64,000 nucleotides of DNA, taken from NCBI RefSeq assembly GCF_000186345.1, contig NC_014962.1:1860001-1924000 (forward strand), given 5' to 3'. Below, in pieces: positions 11,473-19,720 of this stretch (within the stretch, counting starts at the first letter, position 1; every line of letters starts with the position of its first letter). The translations under genes were made by a program, and so were the position numbers. The stretch comes from Isosphaera pallida ATCC 43644 (GTDB lineage: Bacteria > Planctomycetota > Planctomycetia > Isosphaerales > Isosphaeraceae). Below the pieces are notes generated by a model. The model did no database searches. It worked only from the letters and a program-made list of their open reading frames with translations, and was not told the DNA's origin.

Positions 11473-12759
11473 ATGACTCCTTCGAGATGCGATCGCCGCG
11501 ACTTCCTCCGCCGCTCGCTGGCGACCGGCGGGCTTTTGTCTCTGGGTGGGACGACGATCCCCGGTTTCCTGGCCGACACCGCGCGGGCCGCTCGGCTCAG
11601 ATCCAACCCCGCCGAAGGGCGGCGGCGTCTGGTGGTCATTCAACTACTCGGCGGCAACGACGGCCTTAATACCGTCGTTCCCCACACCCACGACCTCTAC
11701 AAACAAGCTCGCAAAGCGCTCCGCATCGAGTCCAACCGCGCTTTAACCATCACTCCGGAAATTGGTCTCCACCCCGATCTGAAAGGACTGGCCGACCTTC
11801 TCGAGAACCATCGTTTGGCGATCGTCCAGGGGGTAGGCTACCCTAATCCCGACCGTTCCCACTTCCGCTCAATGGAGATTTGGGAAACCGCGCGGCGGGA
11901 TGCCCATCCCGACGCTCTAGAACGCGGTTGGCTGGGGCGGGCGATCGAGTCGAGGCGGGACCTGAGCGAACCCAGCGATCCGCCCGGCTTGCAGATTGGT
12001 CGCGCCACCCGTTCGTTGGCCCTCAAATCGTCCCGTGTCGAGGTGCCGGCGGTGACCGACCTGGCTCAATACCGTCTACGTCTCAGCGGCGACGAGGCGA
12101 CCCGTGCCAAAGCCCGCGCGGCTTTAGAGGCGATCGCGCGAGGTTCGACGCCCGCCGACATCCCGAACCCCCCCGCTAACCCGTTGCTCGGCTTTGCCCG
12201 CCGGGCCACAATCAGCGCGCTGGGGTCAAGCCGCCGTCTGGAGGAGGTGGGACCAGCCCCTGACTCGCTTTCCGGCTCGCGGTTTGGTCTCGCTCGGCGT
12301 CTGGGCGAGATCGCCCGGGTAATCCGCGCGGGTTTTTCCACCCCAATCTTCTACACCACTCTAGATGGGTTCGACACCCACGCCAATCAGTTTCAAATCC
12401 ACGCCAACCTGTTGCGGGAGTTGGCCGACTCGGTCGCTGCCTTCCACGCAGCCTTGAGCGAGTCGGGCCACCAGGACGAAACGGCGATCCTGATTTTCAG
12501 CGAGTTCGGCCGACGGGTGGCCGAAAACGCCTCGCTCGGCACCGACCACGGCGCGGCCGCGCCAGTCTTCGTAATCGGTCCAGTCGCCCAATCCGGCCTG
12601 ATCGGCGATCATCCCCGGCTCGATGATCTGGACGACGGCGATCTTAAGCATCACACCGACTTCCGGCGGATCTACGCCGCCCTTCTGGAACACTGGCTTA
12701 AAATCCCCGCGCAACCCGTGCTGGGCGACTTCATACCCTTGAACTTATTCGCAGTGTAA
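11473..12759 (+). CDS. DUF1501 family protein, Tat-exported
   Basis: A 428-residue protein. The N-terminus has a twin-arginine signal, CDRRDFLRRSLATGGLLSLG, ending near ARAA. DUF1501 motifs follow: VVIQLLGGNDGLNTVVP near residue 55, GVGYPNPDRSHFRSMEIWET near 120, FDTHANQF near 300, FSEFGRRVAENASLGTDHGA near 345 and a final HTDFRRIYAALLEHWL. The family belongs to the alkaline-phosphatase/sulfatase-like fold and is abundant in planctomycetes; its substrate is unknown. It lies 150 bp after the DUF1800 gene and is the last gene of the operon. It is paralogous to the DUF1501 gene at 40432. Confidence 0.92.
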   Translation: MTPSRCDRRDFLRRSLATGGLLSLGGTTIPGFLADTARAARLRSNPAEGRRRLVVIQLLGGNDGLNTVVPHTHDLYKQARKALRIESNRALTITPEIGLHPDLKGLADLLENHRLAIVQGVGYPNPDRSHFRSMEIWETARRDAHPDALERGWLGRAIESRRDLSEPSDPPGLQIGRATRSLALKSSRVEVPAVTDLAQYRLRLSGDEATRAKARAALEAIARGSTPADIPNPPANPLLGFARRATISALGSSRRLEEVGPAPDSLSGSRFGLARRLGEIARVIRAGFSTPIFYTTLDGFDTHANQFQIHANLLRELADSVAAFHAALSESGHQDETAILIFSEFGRRVAENASLGTDHGAAAPVFVIGPVAQSGLIGDHPRLDDLDDGDLKHHTDFRRIYAALLEHWLKIPAQPVLGDFIPLNLFAV

Positions 12760-12946: not shown

Positions 12947-13996
12947 TTAAAGACCGTCGGCGCTGATGACCTCGCCACCAGCGCGGGTGGAAAGCGCCTG
13001 GTAGATCTGGGGAAGAGCGCTGCCCTGAACGTAACCGCTGTAGGCAGGAGTGGTGGAACAGTTGACCAGAGCGTAGCCCACCGGCAACCCGGAGTTGTCC
13101 AGCGGCCACGTGGCGATGGTTTCCTTGATGAACCGCACCGAGCCGTCGCACATGGCGAAGTTGGCCCCACCGGGGTGGAAGCTGGAGGCGGCGGTGACGG
13201 AATGCCACTCGGAGCGGGTCTTCCTGGGCCAGGCGTTGATCGTGGCGGTGGTGTCGAAGAAGGCGTCCTCCATCCAACCGGAGTGCCACCAGTGGTTCCA
13301 GGTCTGGCGGCTAGGCGACAGAATCCCGTGAGCCTGCTCGCCGAACAGGAAAGTGTTGGAGGTGCCGTCGGTGATCTCGGCTAGACGAGTGCGACTGTTT
13401 TCGTAGATGACCCCGGTGGCCGTTGCGGTGATCGGCTGATAGCAGGGGTGCTGCATGTTGTAACGGAAGTCGGTCATCCAGAAGGTGCCGCGGTTAGCGC
13501 AGTAGCTGCGGGCCGATTGGACAAAGCCGGGCGGTTGCAGGTCGTACCAGGAATCCAACGGCCGGGTCTGAGCCGCGGCCGGGTCGCTCGGGCACCAGAA
13601 AATGCTCAGGCTGGTGGCGGCGGCGGTGACGTTGGAAGAGTGCCGCATTGAGTGGCTATAGTTGTATGTGTTGAACAACGAACCCTGCTCAATGAAGCCC
13701 AGCATAAAGGCGAAGGCGTTGACCCCGGTGTACCAAATGCCTCCCCCGCGATCGAACCAGCGCTGAGGCAGGTGGCCCGGCGGTAGCGACTGATAGGCCG
13801 ATTCATAGTTGTTGGCCGCCAACGCCCACTGCTTGAGGGTGTTGACGCACTGCGCCCGGCGGGCCGCTTCCCGCGCTGCCTGCACCGCCGGCAACAGCAG
13901 CGCGATCAGCACCGCGATGATGGCGATCACAACGAGAAGCTCGATCAACGTAAAACCGCGGCGGGGCCGCGGAGCTGTCAATCCCCGAATGAACAT
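12947..13996 (-). CDS. DUF1559 prepilin-like protein with H-x9-DG motif
   Basis: A 349-residue protein. The N-terminus has a type IV prepilin/pseudopilin leader: [15 protein letters not shown], then a hydrophobic helix running into [18 protein letters not shown]. Next comes the DUF1559 body, with [13 protein letters not shown] and, near the C-terminus, [17 protein letters not shown], the H-x9-DG signature. Planctomycete genomes hold many such genes; they are presumed surface or secretion-linked pseudopilins. Cleavage after Gly in RRG-FT is expected. A small lipoprotein gene lies 164 bp upstream on the same strand, a common pairing in this phylum although usually in the reverse order. A strong terminator follows. 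Confidence 0.93.
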
Positions 13997-14358: not shown

Positions 14359-14703
14359 GGTTTCAACTCGCTTCTCTCTCGATGCCGTGCCATTCCATGC
14401 TTTTGATAGGTCGTCAATTCAAAACGAACGAACTTCACCCCACCAAAGCCGCTCCATACTAATCGAACTGACCACCCGACTGTGCAACGTCTTCGCCAAA
14501 ACTTGATGAAACTTTGATGAATCCCATGCTCAATTAGCTCGCCTGACTCAACCCTTGTGGTTTTCAATCTTCATGCAAGTCGCCGTTCATCGACACCTTC
14601 CCAATCTGGACTTGCGTTCCCTTCGACAAGGAACTAAACTTTCGTTCAGGATACAGTGATTGTGCGTGTTCGACCGAGGGAACCGAAATGAAGGGTGAAA
14701 GCG
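14359..14703. other. divergent intergenic region
   Basis: This 345-bp stretch separates the lipoprotein (minus) from the Y-family polymerase (plus). It should carry both promoters and contains the alternating GTTCC/GGAAC elements at 14616-14647. No gene was seen. Confidence 0.5.
14616..14647. promoter_or_regulatory. possible damage-response operator upstream of the polymerase
   Basis: GTTCC (14616-14620), GGAAC (14630-14634) and GTTC (14644-14647) form alternating inverted half-sites about 60-90 bp before the polymerase start. Gram-positive-type LexA boxes use GAAC/GTTC half-sites, but the spacing here (9 bases) is longer than the classic 4. The regulatory role is a guess. Confidence 0.25.
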
Positions 14704-15969
14704 ATGGCGAGGCGGCGCGGGATTGGACATCTGGACGCGGATTGTTTTTACGTTTCGGCGGAGCGGGTGCGGGACCGTTTTTTGGTGGGCAAGGCGGTGG
14801 GGGTGCTGGGCAATCAAGGGGCGTGTGTGATCGCCAAGAGTTATGAGATGAAGGCGGCGGGGGTGAGGACAGGTCAACCGATTTGGGAGGCGCGGCGGTT
14901 GTGCCCCTGGGGGGTGTATCTCAAGCGGGATTTTCGGTGGTACGAGGTGTTGAGCCGTCGGATGTTGGAGGTGACGCGGCGCTGGTCAGCGAAGGTGGAA
15001 TATTATTCGATCGACGAATTTTTCTTCGAGGTGGAATGGAACGACGCGGAGACCACTGTTGACGACCCGGCGACGTGGGCTCGGGAGTGGGGTCGGCGGC
15101 TCCGGGACGCGATTTGGGAGGAGGTGGGGGTACCGGTGACGATGGGGATCGCGCCGAGTCGGACCCTCGCCAAACTTTTGTCCGACACCGCTAAGCCGTT
15201 CGGGGTGGCCGCGGCGTTCGCAGAGGCTGAACTTGAGAAGGTGCTGGCACGAACGGCGATCACCGAAGTCAGTGGCATCGCCGGGCGTCGGGCGCGTCGT
15301 CTGGCTCCCTGGGGGGTGGAGACCTGTTGGGATTTCGTTCAGTTGAACCGTGCGACGGTTCGACGGCTTTTGACCTGTCGGGGTGAAGCGCTTTGGTGGG
15401 AGCTGCGGGGTCAGCCGGTGGAACCGCTTCAACCGCAGCGTCCCCCTCACCGCGCGATTTCCCGGGGCGGTTCGTTGGGGGCTGGAGGCGACGACTCGGC
15501 CTACCTACACGGCTGGCTGGTCCGTAACCTGGAACGTCTCATCGAGGAGTTGGAGTTTCACGAGGTGCGTGCGGGTCGTTTGACGCTTTGGCTGGGGTTC
15601 CGGGATGGACGTTGGGGCCGGCGGACTCATGTGCCCATCGCGCCTACCGACCGTTTCGACTGGCTCTTGGAAGGGACTGCGCCGCTTTTGGAGGCGATCC
15701 TCAAGGCCCATCCCCGAGGCTGGGCCAATCGAATGCACTTGATCGCCGAGGAATTGGAACCGCGGGGCGTGGTCCAGCTTGGCTTGTTCGATCCTCCCCA
15801 GGTTCGCGCGCGGGCCGAAACAATCGCCGACCTCAAGCGGCGGGTCAATCAGCGTCATGGGCGGTTCGCGCTGCGAAGCGGAGCGACCCTGGCTTTGGGA
15901 AGGGAGCTGTATCACGACCCCGCCCATCAGTACGACATTTGCGACGTGCGCGGCAAGTTCTGCTTTTGA
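14704..15969 (+). CDS. Y-family (translesion) DNA polymerase
   Basis: A 421-residue protein. The ATG at 14704 is preceded by AAGGG; a GTG three codons earlier is an alternative. Y-family catalytic features are present: GHLDADCFYVSAERV near residue 10 (first metal-binding Asp and the FY steric-gate region) and YYSIDEFFFEV near residue 100 (S-I-D-E second metal site). TMGIAPSRTLAKLLSDTAKP and a helix-hairpin-helix-like VSGIAGRRARRLAPWGV follow, then the little-finger region. The length suits DinB/UmuC-like enzymes. Translesion synthesis after DNA damage is the expected role. A divergent SRAP-like gene follows 75 bp downstream on the same strand. Confidence 0.93.
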   Translation: MARRRGIGHLDADCFYVSAERVRDRFLVGKAVGVLGNQGACVIAKSYEMKAAGVRTGQPIWEARRLCPWGVYLKRDFRWYEVLSRRMLEVTRRWSAKVEYYSIDEFFFEVEWNDAETTVDDPATWAREWGRRLRDAIWEEVGVPVTMGIAPSRTLAKLLSDTAKPFGVAAAFAEAELEKVLARTAITEVSGIAGRRARRLAPWGVETCWDFVQLNRATVRRLLTCRGEALWWELRGQPVEPLQPQRPPHRAISRGGSLGAGGDDSAYLHGWLVRNLERLIEELEFHEVRAGRLTLWLGFRDGRWGRRTHVPIAPTDRFDWLLEGTAPLLEAILKAHPRGWANRMHLIAEELEPRGVVQLGLFDPPQVRARAETIADLKRRVNQRHGRFALRSGATLALGRELYHDPAHQYDICDVRGKFCF

Positions 15970-16044
15970 CACGAGTGGTTCATCGTTCACGTTCGGACAC
16001 GCATAGCGAACGCGGTTGTTGACCCATGTTCTTCCGATGCGATC

Positions 16045-16518
16045 ATGTGTCGAGCGGTGGCATTGGCAGCCGACGAGGTGTCGGCCCAGACCTGGGCGCG
16101 ATGGAGCAATTGGTTGGCGGCGCGGCGTCATGATCGGGGAGGCGAGGCGGAATACCGCTTCGACGCCTGGGATCGTTGTCCCAAGTTGCCGATTCTGCGG
16201 GACGGTCACTTGACCCTGGCGCGCTGGGGCAACCTTCGCGGTCAAAGCCGCCACCTGCCCCGCACCGCCTGGACCTGGCTCCGCACCGTGGAACAAGGTT
16301 CTTGGCGGCATCTGGACCCATTAGAGGTGGTCATTCCCGCCACCCTCGCGTTCGAGCGTGGGGTCTGGTATCGGGTACGCCAGGGTATCCGCGGCCTGCT
16401 CGTTCCCGACGAACGCGGTTGGGCGGTCTGTTACATGATCTGCCAACCTTCAAGTCATTATTACTATGTCATGACGCGAAGTGCTCATATGCCGGTCTTG
16501 ATTGGCGAGACCATTTAA
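16045..16518 (+). CDS. divergent SRAP (YedK/HMCES)-like protein
   Basis: A 157-residue protein beginning Met-Cys-Arg, so Met removal would expose Cys as in SRAP proteins, which use Cys2 to crosslink abasic sites in single-stranded DNA. Further SRAP-like marks occur in family order: LARWGNL (compare RWGL), EVVIPATLAFERGVWY (compare CLIPADGFYEW) and SAHMPVLI near the end (compare HxRMPVIL). The NARAET segment is not recognisable, and the protein is shorter than the usual 200-230 residues. It follows a Y-family polymerase gene by 75 bp, a context that fits DNA-damage tolerance. No clear ribosome binding site precedes the start. Family membership is likely but not certain. Confidence 0.55.
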   Translation: MCRAVALAADEVSAQTWARWSNWLAARRHDRGGEAEYRFDAWDRCPKLPILRDGHLTLARWGNLRGQSRHLPRTAWTWLRTVEQGSWRHLDPLEVVIPATLAFERGVWYRVRQGIRGLLVPDERGWAVCYMICQPSSHYYYVMTRSAHMPVLIGETI

Positions 16519-16569: not shown

Positions 16570-17400
16570 TCAATTGGGTTCCATAAGCTGGTCGGGGAGG
16601 AAATGATGAGCGGGCCAGGGACCGGACCATTCCAGCACGAGACCGTCGGCGAGCAAGGCGGTGGCCAGGGATTCGAGACGTTCCAGGAAGCGGTTTTGGG
16701 ACGCTCGTTTGAGCAGGATCGCGCGTCGGAACACGGGAATCTCGCCGGCAGGGTTGTCGGTTCCAGCCGCCTTAGCGCGGAGGGGCAGGGGGACGACCTT
16801 GCGAATCAGGTCGCCGAGGCGTTCTACAAGGTGGTCGGCGTGGGCCAGCGCGTCGCGTTGGAGGGTCTGATCGAGGTCGCGATGGAAGGCTTTTTCCTGA
16901 AGGTAGCGTGCGCCGGGGGAGCTGGGCAGGGCGTGGAAACGCGCGCGCCAGACGGGGTCGTGGGCGACGCGGGCAGCGCGGGCGTGGGTCGAATCGAGCA
17001 GTCCAGCGAGGGTCCATTCAACCGAGTCGGCCACTGTGTCGAGGGCGTCGCGCCAGGAATCGGCATGGTCCGTGATGCGTTGCCGCAAGGCGTCGCGCGA
17101 ACCAAAGACCAGGCCGAACCGGGCCGGGACCAGCGAGGCATGTTGGAGAACCAGCTCTTGAAGGGCGGCGTGACGAGCAGCGCGGGGAGCGATCCAGAGG
17201 GGATCGGGTCCCTCGGAGCGATTGAGGGCAGCATCGATCGACCGGGCATCGACTCGGCAGGTCAAGGCGATCAAGCCGGGACCGCATTCCACTTGGTCCA
17301 ACGGGGTGGGACGATCCGGCTCGAAGGAGGGAGCAGCGGCGAGGAGCGAGAGATCGAGCGGTCGGTCGATCAGGCCGACCAGCCAATAGGCGTTGTTCAT
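16570..17400 (-). CDS. GvpL/GvpF-family gas vesicle protein
   Basis: A 276-residue protein starting at MNNAYWLVGLIDRPL; the frame opens earlier at 17451 but family proteins begin with this strand. Matching features are GLIALTCRVDARSIDAALNR, RHAALQELVLQHASLVPARF-GLVFGS (family: VLPLRFGTVF), VEWTLAGLLD and SPGARYLQEKAFHRDL (family: GxxYL..K). GvpF/GvpL are minor structural or accessory proteins of gas vesicles. No other gvp gene (gvpA, gvpN, gvpK) is in the window, so the function here cannot be settled from context. It lies 61 bp behind the rhomboid gene on the same strand, probably in one operon. Confidence 0.85.
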   Translation of the reverse strand: MNNAYWLVGLIDRPLDLSLLAAAPSFEPDRPTPLDQVECGPGLIALTCRVDARSIDAALNRSEGPDPLWIAPRAARHAALQELVLQHASLVPARFGLVFGSRDALRQRITDHADSWRDALDTVADSVEWTLAGLLDSTHARAARVAHDPVWRARFHALPSSPGARYLQEKAFHRDLDQTLQRDALAHADHLVERLGDLIRKVVPLPLRAKAAGTDNPAGEIPVFRRAILLKRASQNRFLERLESLATALLADGLVLEWSGPWPAHHFLPDQLMEPN

Positions 17401-17461
17401 GGCGGAGGCGCGACCTTTCGGAGCGAGACAAGACCACACGCGTCGATCCAACCCGGCGGGG

Positions 17462-19465
17462 TTAGCGGGGATTCATCCGAATGGCGTGGGTTTGCGCGTA
17501 GGCTCGCACGCTCTCTTGATAACGTTGGTTAAGCTCTTGAAACTCGCGTTGAGCCCGTTTCCACTGAAGGGAACTGTTCACGAGGGTGGAGAGGGTTTCA
17601 GCCCGAATCGACTCGCGCATCCACTTGAGGGCTTCGGCCAGGCGAGCAACCGCTTCGTCGAGTTCCGCCGCGGTGGCGGTCAACTCGGGACCGGGTGCCT
17701 GGAGTTTGCGGGTTTGGGCCTGGATTGACTCCACCTCCTCCAGAAGACGGCGGTGATCTTGCCACATTTGAATGTCGAGGGTGCCCAGATCGCCTCGATG
17801 GCGGTTTTTCTGACGGACGATCCGTTCAGAAAGCTGGTTGTATCGCCGGATCACGTGATTGATGTCACGTTCCAGAGGCTCGACCTGTTCCAAAAAGCCG
17901 ATCAAGCGGGTGTGGGGATCTTCCCAGGCGTGATGGACCACGAAACGCCAGCTTTGCAGCACGAAGGCAGCAAGGGCCAACGCGCCGAGGGGACGCATCA
18001 CGTTCCAGAAAACGACCCGGCGTGAGGGAACCCCACCAGAGGGCGACTCCCCGGCGTCCGCTGGCGTTTCGGTTGGCGTCGAAGCGGATGGTGCCGCGTT
18101 GAGTAGGGTTCCTTTGGGAAACAGAATGGCCCCAGCCAGAAATCCGCACACCAACCCCCCGAGATGAGCGGCGTTGTCAATCATGGGCAAGCTCAGGCCA
18201 ATCGCCAAATTCAGCGCCACGAATCCCCAAACCGCCCGACTCAGAGTTCGCGCCACCAACGGGGGAATAGACTGGGGGCGGTGAAGCGAGGCGGCTCCTA
18301 ACGCGCCGATCAAACCAAAGACCGCGCCGGAAGCTCCTGCGCTGAGGTTGATGGGATGCCAGGCCAGCGAGGCAGTCGCACCGCCTAGCCCGGCGATGAG
18401 ATAGATTGCCAAAAACGAACCGTGACCGAACATCCGCTCAATGAGAGGGCCCACCACCCAAAGACACCAGGCGTTCATGGCCAGATGAAGGATGCCGACA
18501 TGCAAGAACATCATGGTCAAAGCGCGCCAGGATTCGTCAAACAACGCGACCCGGGGTCCGTACAGACAACCCCAGGCGATCAGATCCTCCGGATCGGGGT
18601 GGAGGGGCGAGACCCCGCTGATCGTCATCACCCCAAAGACCATAACGCATAATAATAAAATGAGATAGGTAATGATCACATGGGGGGTACGTTGTCGAAG
18701 AGCGCAGGCGAAGAGGTGGAGTTGGTTCTGGTAGGCGCGCAGGCGGTCGCTGAGGTGAGCGGCTGCCTTGAGATCGTCGAGGGCCTGGTCGATCGACTCG
18801 GCTCCGGCCCCTTCCAAGCGCAACCGCCTCCCGAGGCGAAGCAGGCCGTCCCGCGCCTCCTGAGGAAGATGAGCCAAAATCCGTCGCGGAGTTCGGGACC
18901 AGGCGGAGGCGCTGGTGGCGGGGTCGTTGAGGGACCAGAGGTCATGAAAGGGGATGCGAACCGGTCCCCGCACGGTGTGGCCGCGGTGTTTGGTCCGCGT
19001 GGAATGTGGGCAAGCGGCTTGAAGTCCCCGGTTGGTGACGGCCAGGAGGGGACGGTCCAACACGCGGTCGCGGAAGCGACGGCGCTGAACAACCAAAGCG
19101 AGCAACTGCTCGTCCTCGTCAAGTCGAACCACCCCGCAGCGGAAGGCGTTAAGGGCCGAGCGCCAGGAAATCGCCGGAGCCAGCCGAACCGAGGAAATCC
19201 CCATCAACTCCAGACGACAGCAGGCCAGAACCAAAGCGTCAGCCTGGCGAGGACAAAGAGGCGAGACCACGGGCGATCTGGGAACTTCGGAGAGCCTTGG
19301 CGAGGCAGCGGAGGACACAACGTCTCTGACTCCCACGGACGACCAAGGGATCAAGGACGAGTGGTTGATCGATTGGGATAGTGCGTCCGGCTCGCCATTG
19401 GCGCTGCGGGAACAGGAGTCGGTCGGATTCGGGGAGGTCGGATCAACCGAGCCATCCGACATCAT
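17462..19465 (-). CDS. rhomboid-family intramembrane serine protease with long extra-membrane ends
   Basis: A 667-residue protein. ATG 19465 is chosen because GAGGA stands 8 bases upstream; an open frame continues to 19546. About 250 cytosolic-looking residues precede a membrane core from VIITYLILLLCVMVFGVM. The core contains WRALTMMFLHVGILHLAMNA (HxxxHxxxN-type), SAGASGAVFGLIGAL with the catalytic Ser near residue 375, and IDNAAHLGGLVCG with the catalytic His near residue 433. A C-terminal tail of about 210 residues has coiled-coil character (LLEEVESIQAQTRKLQ). Typical rhomboids are 200-300 residues, so both extensions are unusual. It probably forms an operon with the GvpL/F gene. Confidence 0.88.
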   Translation of the reverse strand: MMSDGSVDPTSPNPTDSCSRSANGEPDALSQSINHSSLIPWSSVGVRDVVSSAASPRLSEVPRSPVVSPLCPRQADALVLACCRLELMGISSVRLAPAISWRSALNAFRCGVVRLDEDEQLLALVVQRRRFRDRVLDRPLLAVTNRGLQAACPHSTRTKHRGHTVRGPVRIPFHDLWSLNDPATSASAWSRTPRRILAHLPQEARDGLLRLGRRLRLEGAGAESIDQALDDLKAAAHLSDRLRAYQNQLHLFACALRQRTPHVIITYLILLLCVMVFGVMTISGVSPLHPDPEDLIAWGCLYGPRVALFDESWRALTMMFLHVGILHLAMNAWCLWVVGPLIERMFGHGSFLAIYLIAGLGGATASLAWHPINLSAGASGAVFGLIGALGAASLHRPQSIPPLVARTLSRAVWGFVALNLAIGLSLPMIDNAAHLGGLVCGFLAGAILFPKGTLLNAAPSASTPTETPADAGESPSGGVPSRRVVFWNVMRPLGALALAAFVLQSWRFVVHHAWEDPHTRLIGFLEQVEPLERDINHVIRRYNQLSERIVRQKNRHRGDLGTLDIQMWQDHRRLLEEVESIQAQTRKLQAPGPELTATAAELDEAVARLAEALKWMRESIRAETLSTLVNSSLQWKRAQREFQELNQRYQESVRAYAQTHAIRMNPR

Positions 19466-19720
19466 AGAGCGTTCCTCGTCATACAAACGCCAAGTGGAGG
19501 CGGGCCAGTTAGAATACCCCAGAAACGTCGTTTTCGCCCACCCCATACCGGTTCTCCTTCGAGATTGCTTGATCGAAGTCGCGGTTTAAGCGGGGTTGGG
19601 GAGGAAAGGTTCGGGTCCCACCCGCCTCAAGGAAGAAGACGAGCCCAGCCTGGGATGGCCGACGAGCCCCCCGACTTGTCATCAAGCAAAACGGGAGCAG
19701 GGAAGGAAAGCCACCTTGCA

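Follow-up and report, generated by a model that had tools for sequence, protein, structure and literature searches.

A truncated SRAP-fold protein encoded beside a Y-family polymerase in Isosphaera pallida and other Planctomycetia

A polymerase gene followed by a small open reading frame

We analysed a window of 64,000 nucleotides from the genome of Isosphaera pallida ATCC 43644, a member of the family Isosphaeraceae. In this window, the gene of a translesion DNA polymerase is followed by a small open reading frame that begins 75 bp downstream on the same strand (Table 1). The coordinates and the order of the two genes agree with the initial annotation of this stretch.

Table 1. Coordinates of the gene pair, of its motifs and residues, and of neighbouring genes in the window
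Feature	Position	Strand	Basis or remark
Y-family (UmuC/DinB-type) translesion DNA polymerase	14704..15969	+	Pfam IMS, IMS_C
QLGLFD, beta-clamp-binding-like motif, polymerase C-terminus	15781..15798 (approximate)	+	Read by eye
Conserved polymerase C-terminal tail HQYDICDVRGKFCF	15919..15966 (approximate)	+	Candidate binding site of the small protein
SRAP-fold small protein, 157 aa	16045..16518	+	AF2 model, SRAP structure matches, family conservation
Cys2, equivalent of SRAP catalytic Cys2	16048..16050	+	Structural alignment
Trp61-Gly62-Asn63, RWG-type motif	16225..16233	+	Trp61 invariant (84/84)
Glu104, equivalent of YedK Glu105	16354..16356	+	Same Pro-to-Glu spacing as IPADGFYE
Ser146, at YedK His160 position	16480..16482	+	Profile alignment
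His148, histidine of the initial annotation, at YedK Arg162 position	16486..16488	+	Profile alignment
DUF1501 protein	11473..12759	+	
DUF1559 protein	12947..13996	-	N-terminal methylation motif
GvpL/GvpF gas-vesicle family protein	16573..17451	-	Directly after the pair, opposite strand
Rhomboid protease domain in a 694-aa protein	17465..19546	-	

The polymerase starts at the ATG at 14704 or, alternatively, at an upstream GTG at 14695, and it matches the Pfam families IMS (E 5e-35) and IMS_C (E 2e-6). Among 72 polymerase relatives, the catalytic residues D14, D16, D107 and E108 show a conservation of 95% or more, and judged by its sequence the polymerase is catalytically intact. In the alignment of the polymerases (A4), the LF of the clamp-type motif is nearly invariant; a QxxLF consensus has been described for Y-family groups (PMC12926913). 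The extreme C-terminal end is nearly invariant as well. UmuC binds UmuD' with its tail (PMC6511836), and by analogy this end may serve as a binding site for the small protein. A RecA-NT motif could be aligned at the expected place in the tail, but 89 of 150 shuffles scored as high, and the search for DUF4113 gave no match.

At the loci L044, L049, L051, L052, L053, L057 and L058, the polymerase is preceded by a strong promoter, TTGACNTGTYC-N4-GTNCANACTA, whose spacer is shared. We considered this conserved pattern as a sign of an SOS regulon; in five genomes it occurs once per genome and only at the polymerase, so that it shows no regulon.

Recognition of the small protein as an SRAP-fold protein

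The small protein of the window has no family match in Pfam or NCBIfam, and at the gathering cut-off of the Pfam SRAP family (PF02586) no match was obtained for the window protein, for 48 members or for 8 further relatives. We nevertheless take the open reading frame to be more than a chance one, because it is kept in 40 of the 45 genomes of the Isosphaeraceae, its profile scores above shuffled profiles and its fold match is unambiguous. The genome of the window encodes the small protein once and lacks a PF02586 SRAP protein.

We modelled the small protein with AlphaFold (AF2) from an alignment of 48 relatives (A2), which resulted in a mean pLDDT of 93.5 and a pTM of 0.88. The top three PDB matches of the model in Foldseek were SRAP proteins. 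With VIA-align, 15 solved SRAP entries reached Z-scores of 8.7–11.0 and the next, unrelated entry reached 2.6; the best entry, 2f20, was aligned over 141 residues at 2.9 Å. For the relative L199, in which both Cys2 and Glu are missing, the model was again confident (pLDDT 96.5) and the fold unchanged (Z 8.7–10.5). According to these models, the assignment of the small protein to the SRAP fold is unambiguous, and the comparison with YedK that had been proposed from the sequence returned the predicted fold of SRAP. The model covers residues 2–169 of YedK and stops after the MPV strand, without the C-terminal part of SRAP. The small protein is thus indeed shorter than SRAP, as the initial annotation had stated, and mainly by ending at this strand.

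A relation is also suggested by the sequence. As described earlier, the protein contains Met-Cys at its start, RWG and IPA....E, with the Glu six residues past the Pro as in SRAP, and the NARAET segment is absent as such. The profile of A2 aligned to that of 33 canonical SRAPs from planctomycetes (A3) with a score of 29.6, and a profile led by the relatives that keep HxRxP (A6) aligned to the canonical SRAP profile with a score of 33.5. Both exceed all shuffles, with 150 shuffles per run (maxima of 26.8 and 24.6 for A2 and 24.3 for A6). In hhalign, the P-values were 7e-4 (A2) and 1.6e-4 (A6), above 150 of 150 shuffles, at a probability of 27–51%. Without the accuracy filter, the profile alignment spans the proteins from end to end, with Met-Cys on Met-Cys and MPV on MPV. 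As far as the sequences tell, the similarity of the small protein to canonical SRAP is weak but beyond chance.

Two other matches, the only ones from sequence searches of solved structures, were discarded. Protocatechuate dioxygenase appeared with an E-value of about 1. The match to beta-lactamase inhibitor protein II rests on WG motifs that recur, and we dismissed it in view of the predicted SRAP fold.

Pairing with the polymerase and linkage to canonical SRAP genes

To describe the co-occurrence of the two genes, we used 198 genomes of Planctomycetia, where the polymerase was counted by its characteristic C-terminus and a strong E-value; six weak or partial matches to other polymerases were set aside. 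The small protein was found in 75 genomes and the polymerase in 74. Both genes are present in 73 genomes and one alone in three, which gives 73 pairs among 76 carriers (Fisher p about 9e-51, a value that ignores shared ancestry). The small protein occurs without the polymerase in G015, where its gene sits near the end of a short contig, and in G456; the third exception is G026, with a broken polymerase. The near-constant co-occurrence in planctomycetes suggests that the small protein is probably a subunit of the polymerase. Together with the structural matches, it also bears out the proposal of a reduced, divergent SRAP-fold protein beside a translesion polymerase.

The genes are adjacent at 76 of 89 loci, and two arrangements are found. 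The polymerase lies upstream on the same strand at 65 loci (spacing of 3–425 bp) and is divergent at 11 loci (spacing of 59–142 bp); the adjacency thus survives rearrangement. At the remaining 13 loci, no polymerase was found within 1 kb. Some of these are second copies, and at least four genomes (G017, G025, G039 and G041) carry the polymerase gene elsewhere. No third gene is constant in a general survey of the neighbours, in which antisense open reading frames prevail.

Canonical SRAP genes, or fragments of them, occur near the small gene at 12 loci in 8 genomes, within about 5.5 kb and mostly at less than 3 kb. At L213 and L201, for example, the polymerase, the small protein and SRAP lie in a row. 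This linkage is far above chance, for which we expect well under one locus by a rough estimate based on one to a few SRAP genes per 5–10 Mb. A canonical SRAP is present in nine of the 45 genomes of the Isosphaeraceae and in most carriers from other families.

The association of SRAP genes with genes of translesion polymerases has been known since 2013, when they were described near DinB, UmuC and ImuB (PMC3765255). Furthermore, a survey from 2026 includes a UmuC-like polymerase with an SRAP-like protein as one of 11 modules, and modelled complexes of all module types, the SRAP-like one included, score well at the interface (PMC12926913). That module likewise combines a Y-family polymerase with a small SRAP-related partner, for which a regulatory subunit role is proposed, and the pair described here is probably the same module. 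The earlier suggestion of an unrecognised subfamily is therefore weakened; it holds insofar as the family libraries contain no match. The main text of the survey gives neither taxa nor residues, and neither the erosion of residues nor relatives that retain the catalytic triad appear there. Our analysis contributes the distribution of the pair among Planctomycetia, the series of residue states, the proximity of canonical SRAP genes and a correction of the histidine.

Loss of active-site residues and a proposed role of the small protein

In the 33 canonical SRAPs of A3, Cys2, Asn75, Glu105 and His160 are invariant. We compared these positions with 84 distinct relatives of the window protein. Residue 2 of the model aligns with chain residue 2 of most SRAP structures; it is Cys in the window protein and in 66 of the relatives. 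Position 104 is Glu or Asp in 68 relatives. At the position of His160, where the window protein has Ser, only six relatives carry His. All six also have Cys2 and Glu or Asp104, and their motifs read HDRMP, HERMP, HDRAP or HHRMP. The initial annotation had read an H-MPV motif and made the conservation of the C-terminal His among homologues a criterion. The His of this motif, His148, aligns with the Arg of HDRMP, and its column contains Arg in 64, Trp in 14 and His in two of the 84 relatives. It is thus neither conserved nor the catalytic one, and at the catalytic position His is absent from the window protein and from nearly all relatives. We also considered His138 as a relocated catalytic His; it is conserved in 61 relatives but replaced by Arg in 17. 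Low-confidence alignments put Asn63 or the region of Trp76 at the position of Asn75. The scaffold residues E36, F39, W61, W108 and P150 are invariant.

We left columns 1, 2 and 104 out of the alignment used for a tree, on which Cys2 changes its state about 11 times and E/D104 about four times; this is a quick tree with weak support in places and several open forks, and one of the Cys2 cases, L042, has no clear start codon. Cys2 was lost in about ten lineages, in which the pairing with the polymerase is mostly intact. A large clade in which Cys2 is mostly retained has lost Glu104, and both residues are kept in most Isosphaeraceae. The initial annotation had linked crosslinking through Cys2 to lesion bypass. 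As Cys2 was lost repeatedly while the pair remained, crosslinking is not the core function of the pair everywhere. Nor does the presence of a canonical SRAP gene at another site account for the losses, since G006, G505 and G532 lost Cys2 and have no SRAP, and G023, G024, G040 and G041 have both. In genus g18 (L069, L071, L072 and L079), Ser or Ala replaces Cys2, and a canonical SRAP is present in three of four genomes.

We favour, with moderate confidence, the explanation that the small protein descends from the SRAP superfamily and now serves the adjoining polymerase as a dedicated accessory subunit while its covalent chemistry erodes. Prediction and comparison show the fold, the lost residues, the pairing and, at some loci, a linkage with canonical SRAP genes. 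A subunit explains the data better than an enzyme because of the near-obligate pairing, the kept scaffold and the repeated loss of catalytic residues. For the small protein itself we infer physical binding, DNA binding and a role at lesions. It would most likely retain the SRAP surface that holds single-stranded template, would dock on the polymerase, perhaps where the C-terminal tail is conserved, and would position or license the polymerase at an abasic or gapped template. By analogy with UmuD' and YqjX (PMC6511836, PMC12926913), docking on the tail may steer the polymerase to template that is damaged or abasic, although these partners have an SH3-type core whereas the small protein has the SRAP fold. 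The chemistry would erode from distant relatives with Cys2, Glu and His to the window protein with Cys2 and Glu, and to others with neither. Members that retain Cys2 and Glu may still crosslink. That Cys2 is kept in most relatives counts against the subunit explanation and argues that the chemistry matters in most lineages; the 13 loci with no polymerase within 1 kb also count against a subunit.

This conservation leads to a rival explanation, which we consider possible though clearly less probable, namely that the window protein is a working crosslinker. Cys2 would form a thiazolidine with the aldehyde of the abasic (AP) site, aided by Glu104, the polymerase would later bypass the lesion or take over, and selection would act on the chemistry. 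It agrees with the retention of both residues in the Isosphaeraceae, which mostly lack canonical SRAP, and with the six relatives that retain Cys, Glu/Asp and His. Mutants of YedK point in the same direction: the effect of N75A is very modest, that of E105D modest and that of E105A the largest, and H160A retains crosslinking at a rate at least 10-fold lower (PMC9436759). By analogy, a slower reaction of the window protein with AP sites could therefore persist. Speaking against a crosslinker are the losses of Cys2 with the pair mostly intact, also in the SRAP-less genomes named above, the loss of Glu in a large clade, the near-complete loss of His160 and the replacement of the NARAET segment.

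Two further explanations appear very improbable to us. SRAP was first proposed as a thiol autopeptidase beside mutagenic polymerases (PMC3765255), and the small protein might accordingly be a regulatory switch that controls the polymerase by self-cleavage; yet nearly all members have lost the His and many lineages the Cys, and most sequences start at Met-Cys without a propeptide. Just as improbably, the resemblance could be one of fold only, with an unrelated job, such as transcription or the maintenance of a mobile element, and the polymerase as a fellow traveller. The missing Pfam and NCBIfam matches, the low profile-profile probability and the multiple copies and fragments in some genomes would fit this. 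Against it speak the near-obligate pairing, the canonical SRAP genes in the vicinity and the presence of an H-D/E-R-M-P motif in distant members.

Returning to the accessory subunit, we compared the small protein with the SRAP superfamily, whose proteins protect abasic sites (PF02586; YedK, HMCES and BT_1218, 2f20). Common to both are the fold, the Met-Cys start, the RWG strand, the spacing of IPA....E, the MPV strand and the vicinity of translesion polymerase genes. In contrast to the superfamily, the small protein lacks the part after the MPV strand and a family match, its NARAET segment is replaced, His160 is Ser in the window protein, and Cys2 and Glu are not universal. More tentatively, the clade may be an SRAP lineage that was captured as a subunit of the polymerase and displays the steps from a crosslinker with Cys, Glu and His via Cys-Glu proteins, among them the window protein, to a scaffold with no catalytic residues, such that the polymerase of some lineages carries its own covalent clamp for abasic sites.

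Natural members range from the full catalytic triad to none of its residues. This residue series could be used to test directly if covalent shielding excludes lesion bypass as an alternative fate or cooperates with it, and to separate the SRAP features for binding single-stranded DNA or a polymerase from those for chemistry. HMCES reportedly inhibits mutagenic translesion synthesis and covers AP sites (PMC9436759); in the present case, the gene of an HMCES relative is coupled with the gene of a translesion polymerase.

Lastly, we describe copies and decayed pairs. We found no relatives of the small protein on viral contigs or plasmids. In G026 (L217), the polymerase is fragmented with internal stops and the small protein was not found, which represents a decayed pair. 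G455 (L192, L198 and further fragments) has nine matches to the small protein, several of them short or with stops. In G040, multiple copies of the small gene, the polymerase and canonical SRAP, some of them broken, are spread over contigs C1–C4 (L061–L064 and L076), which suggests mobility.
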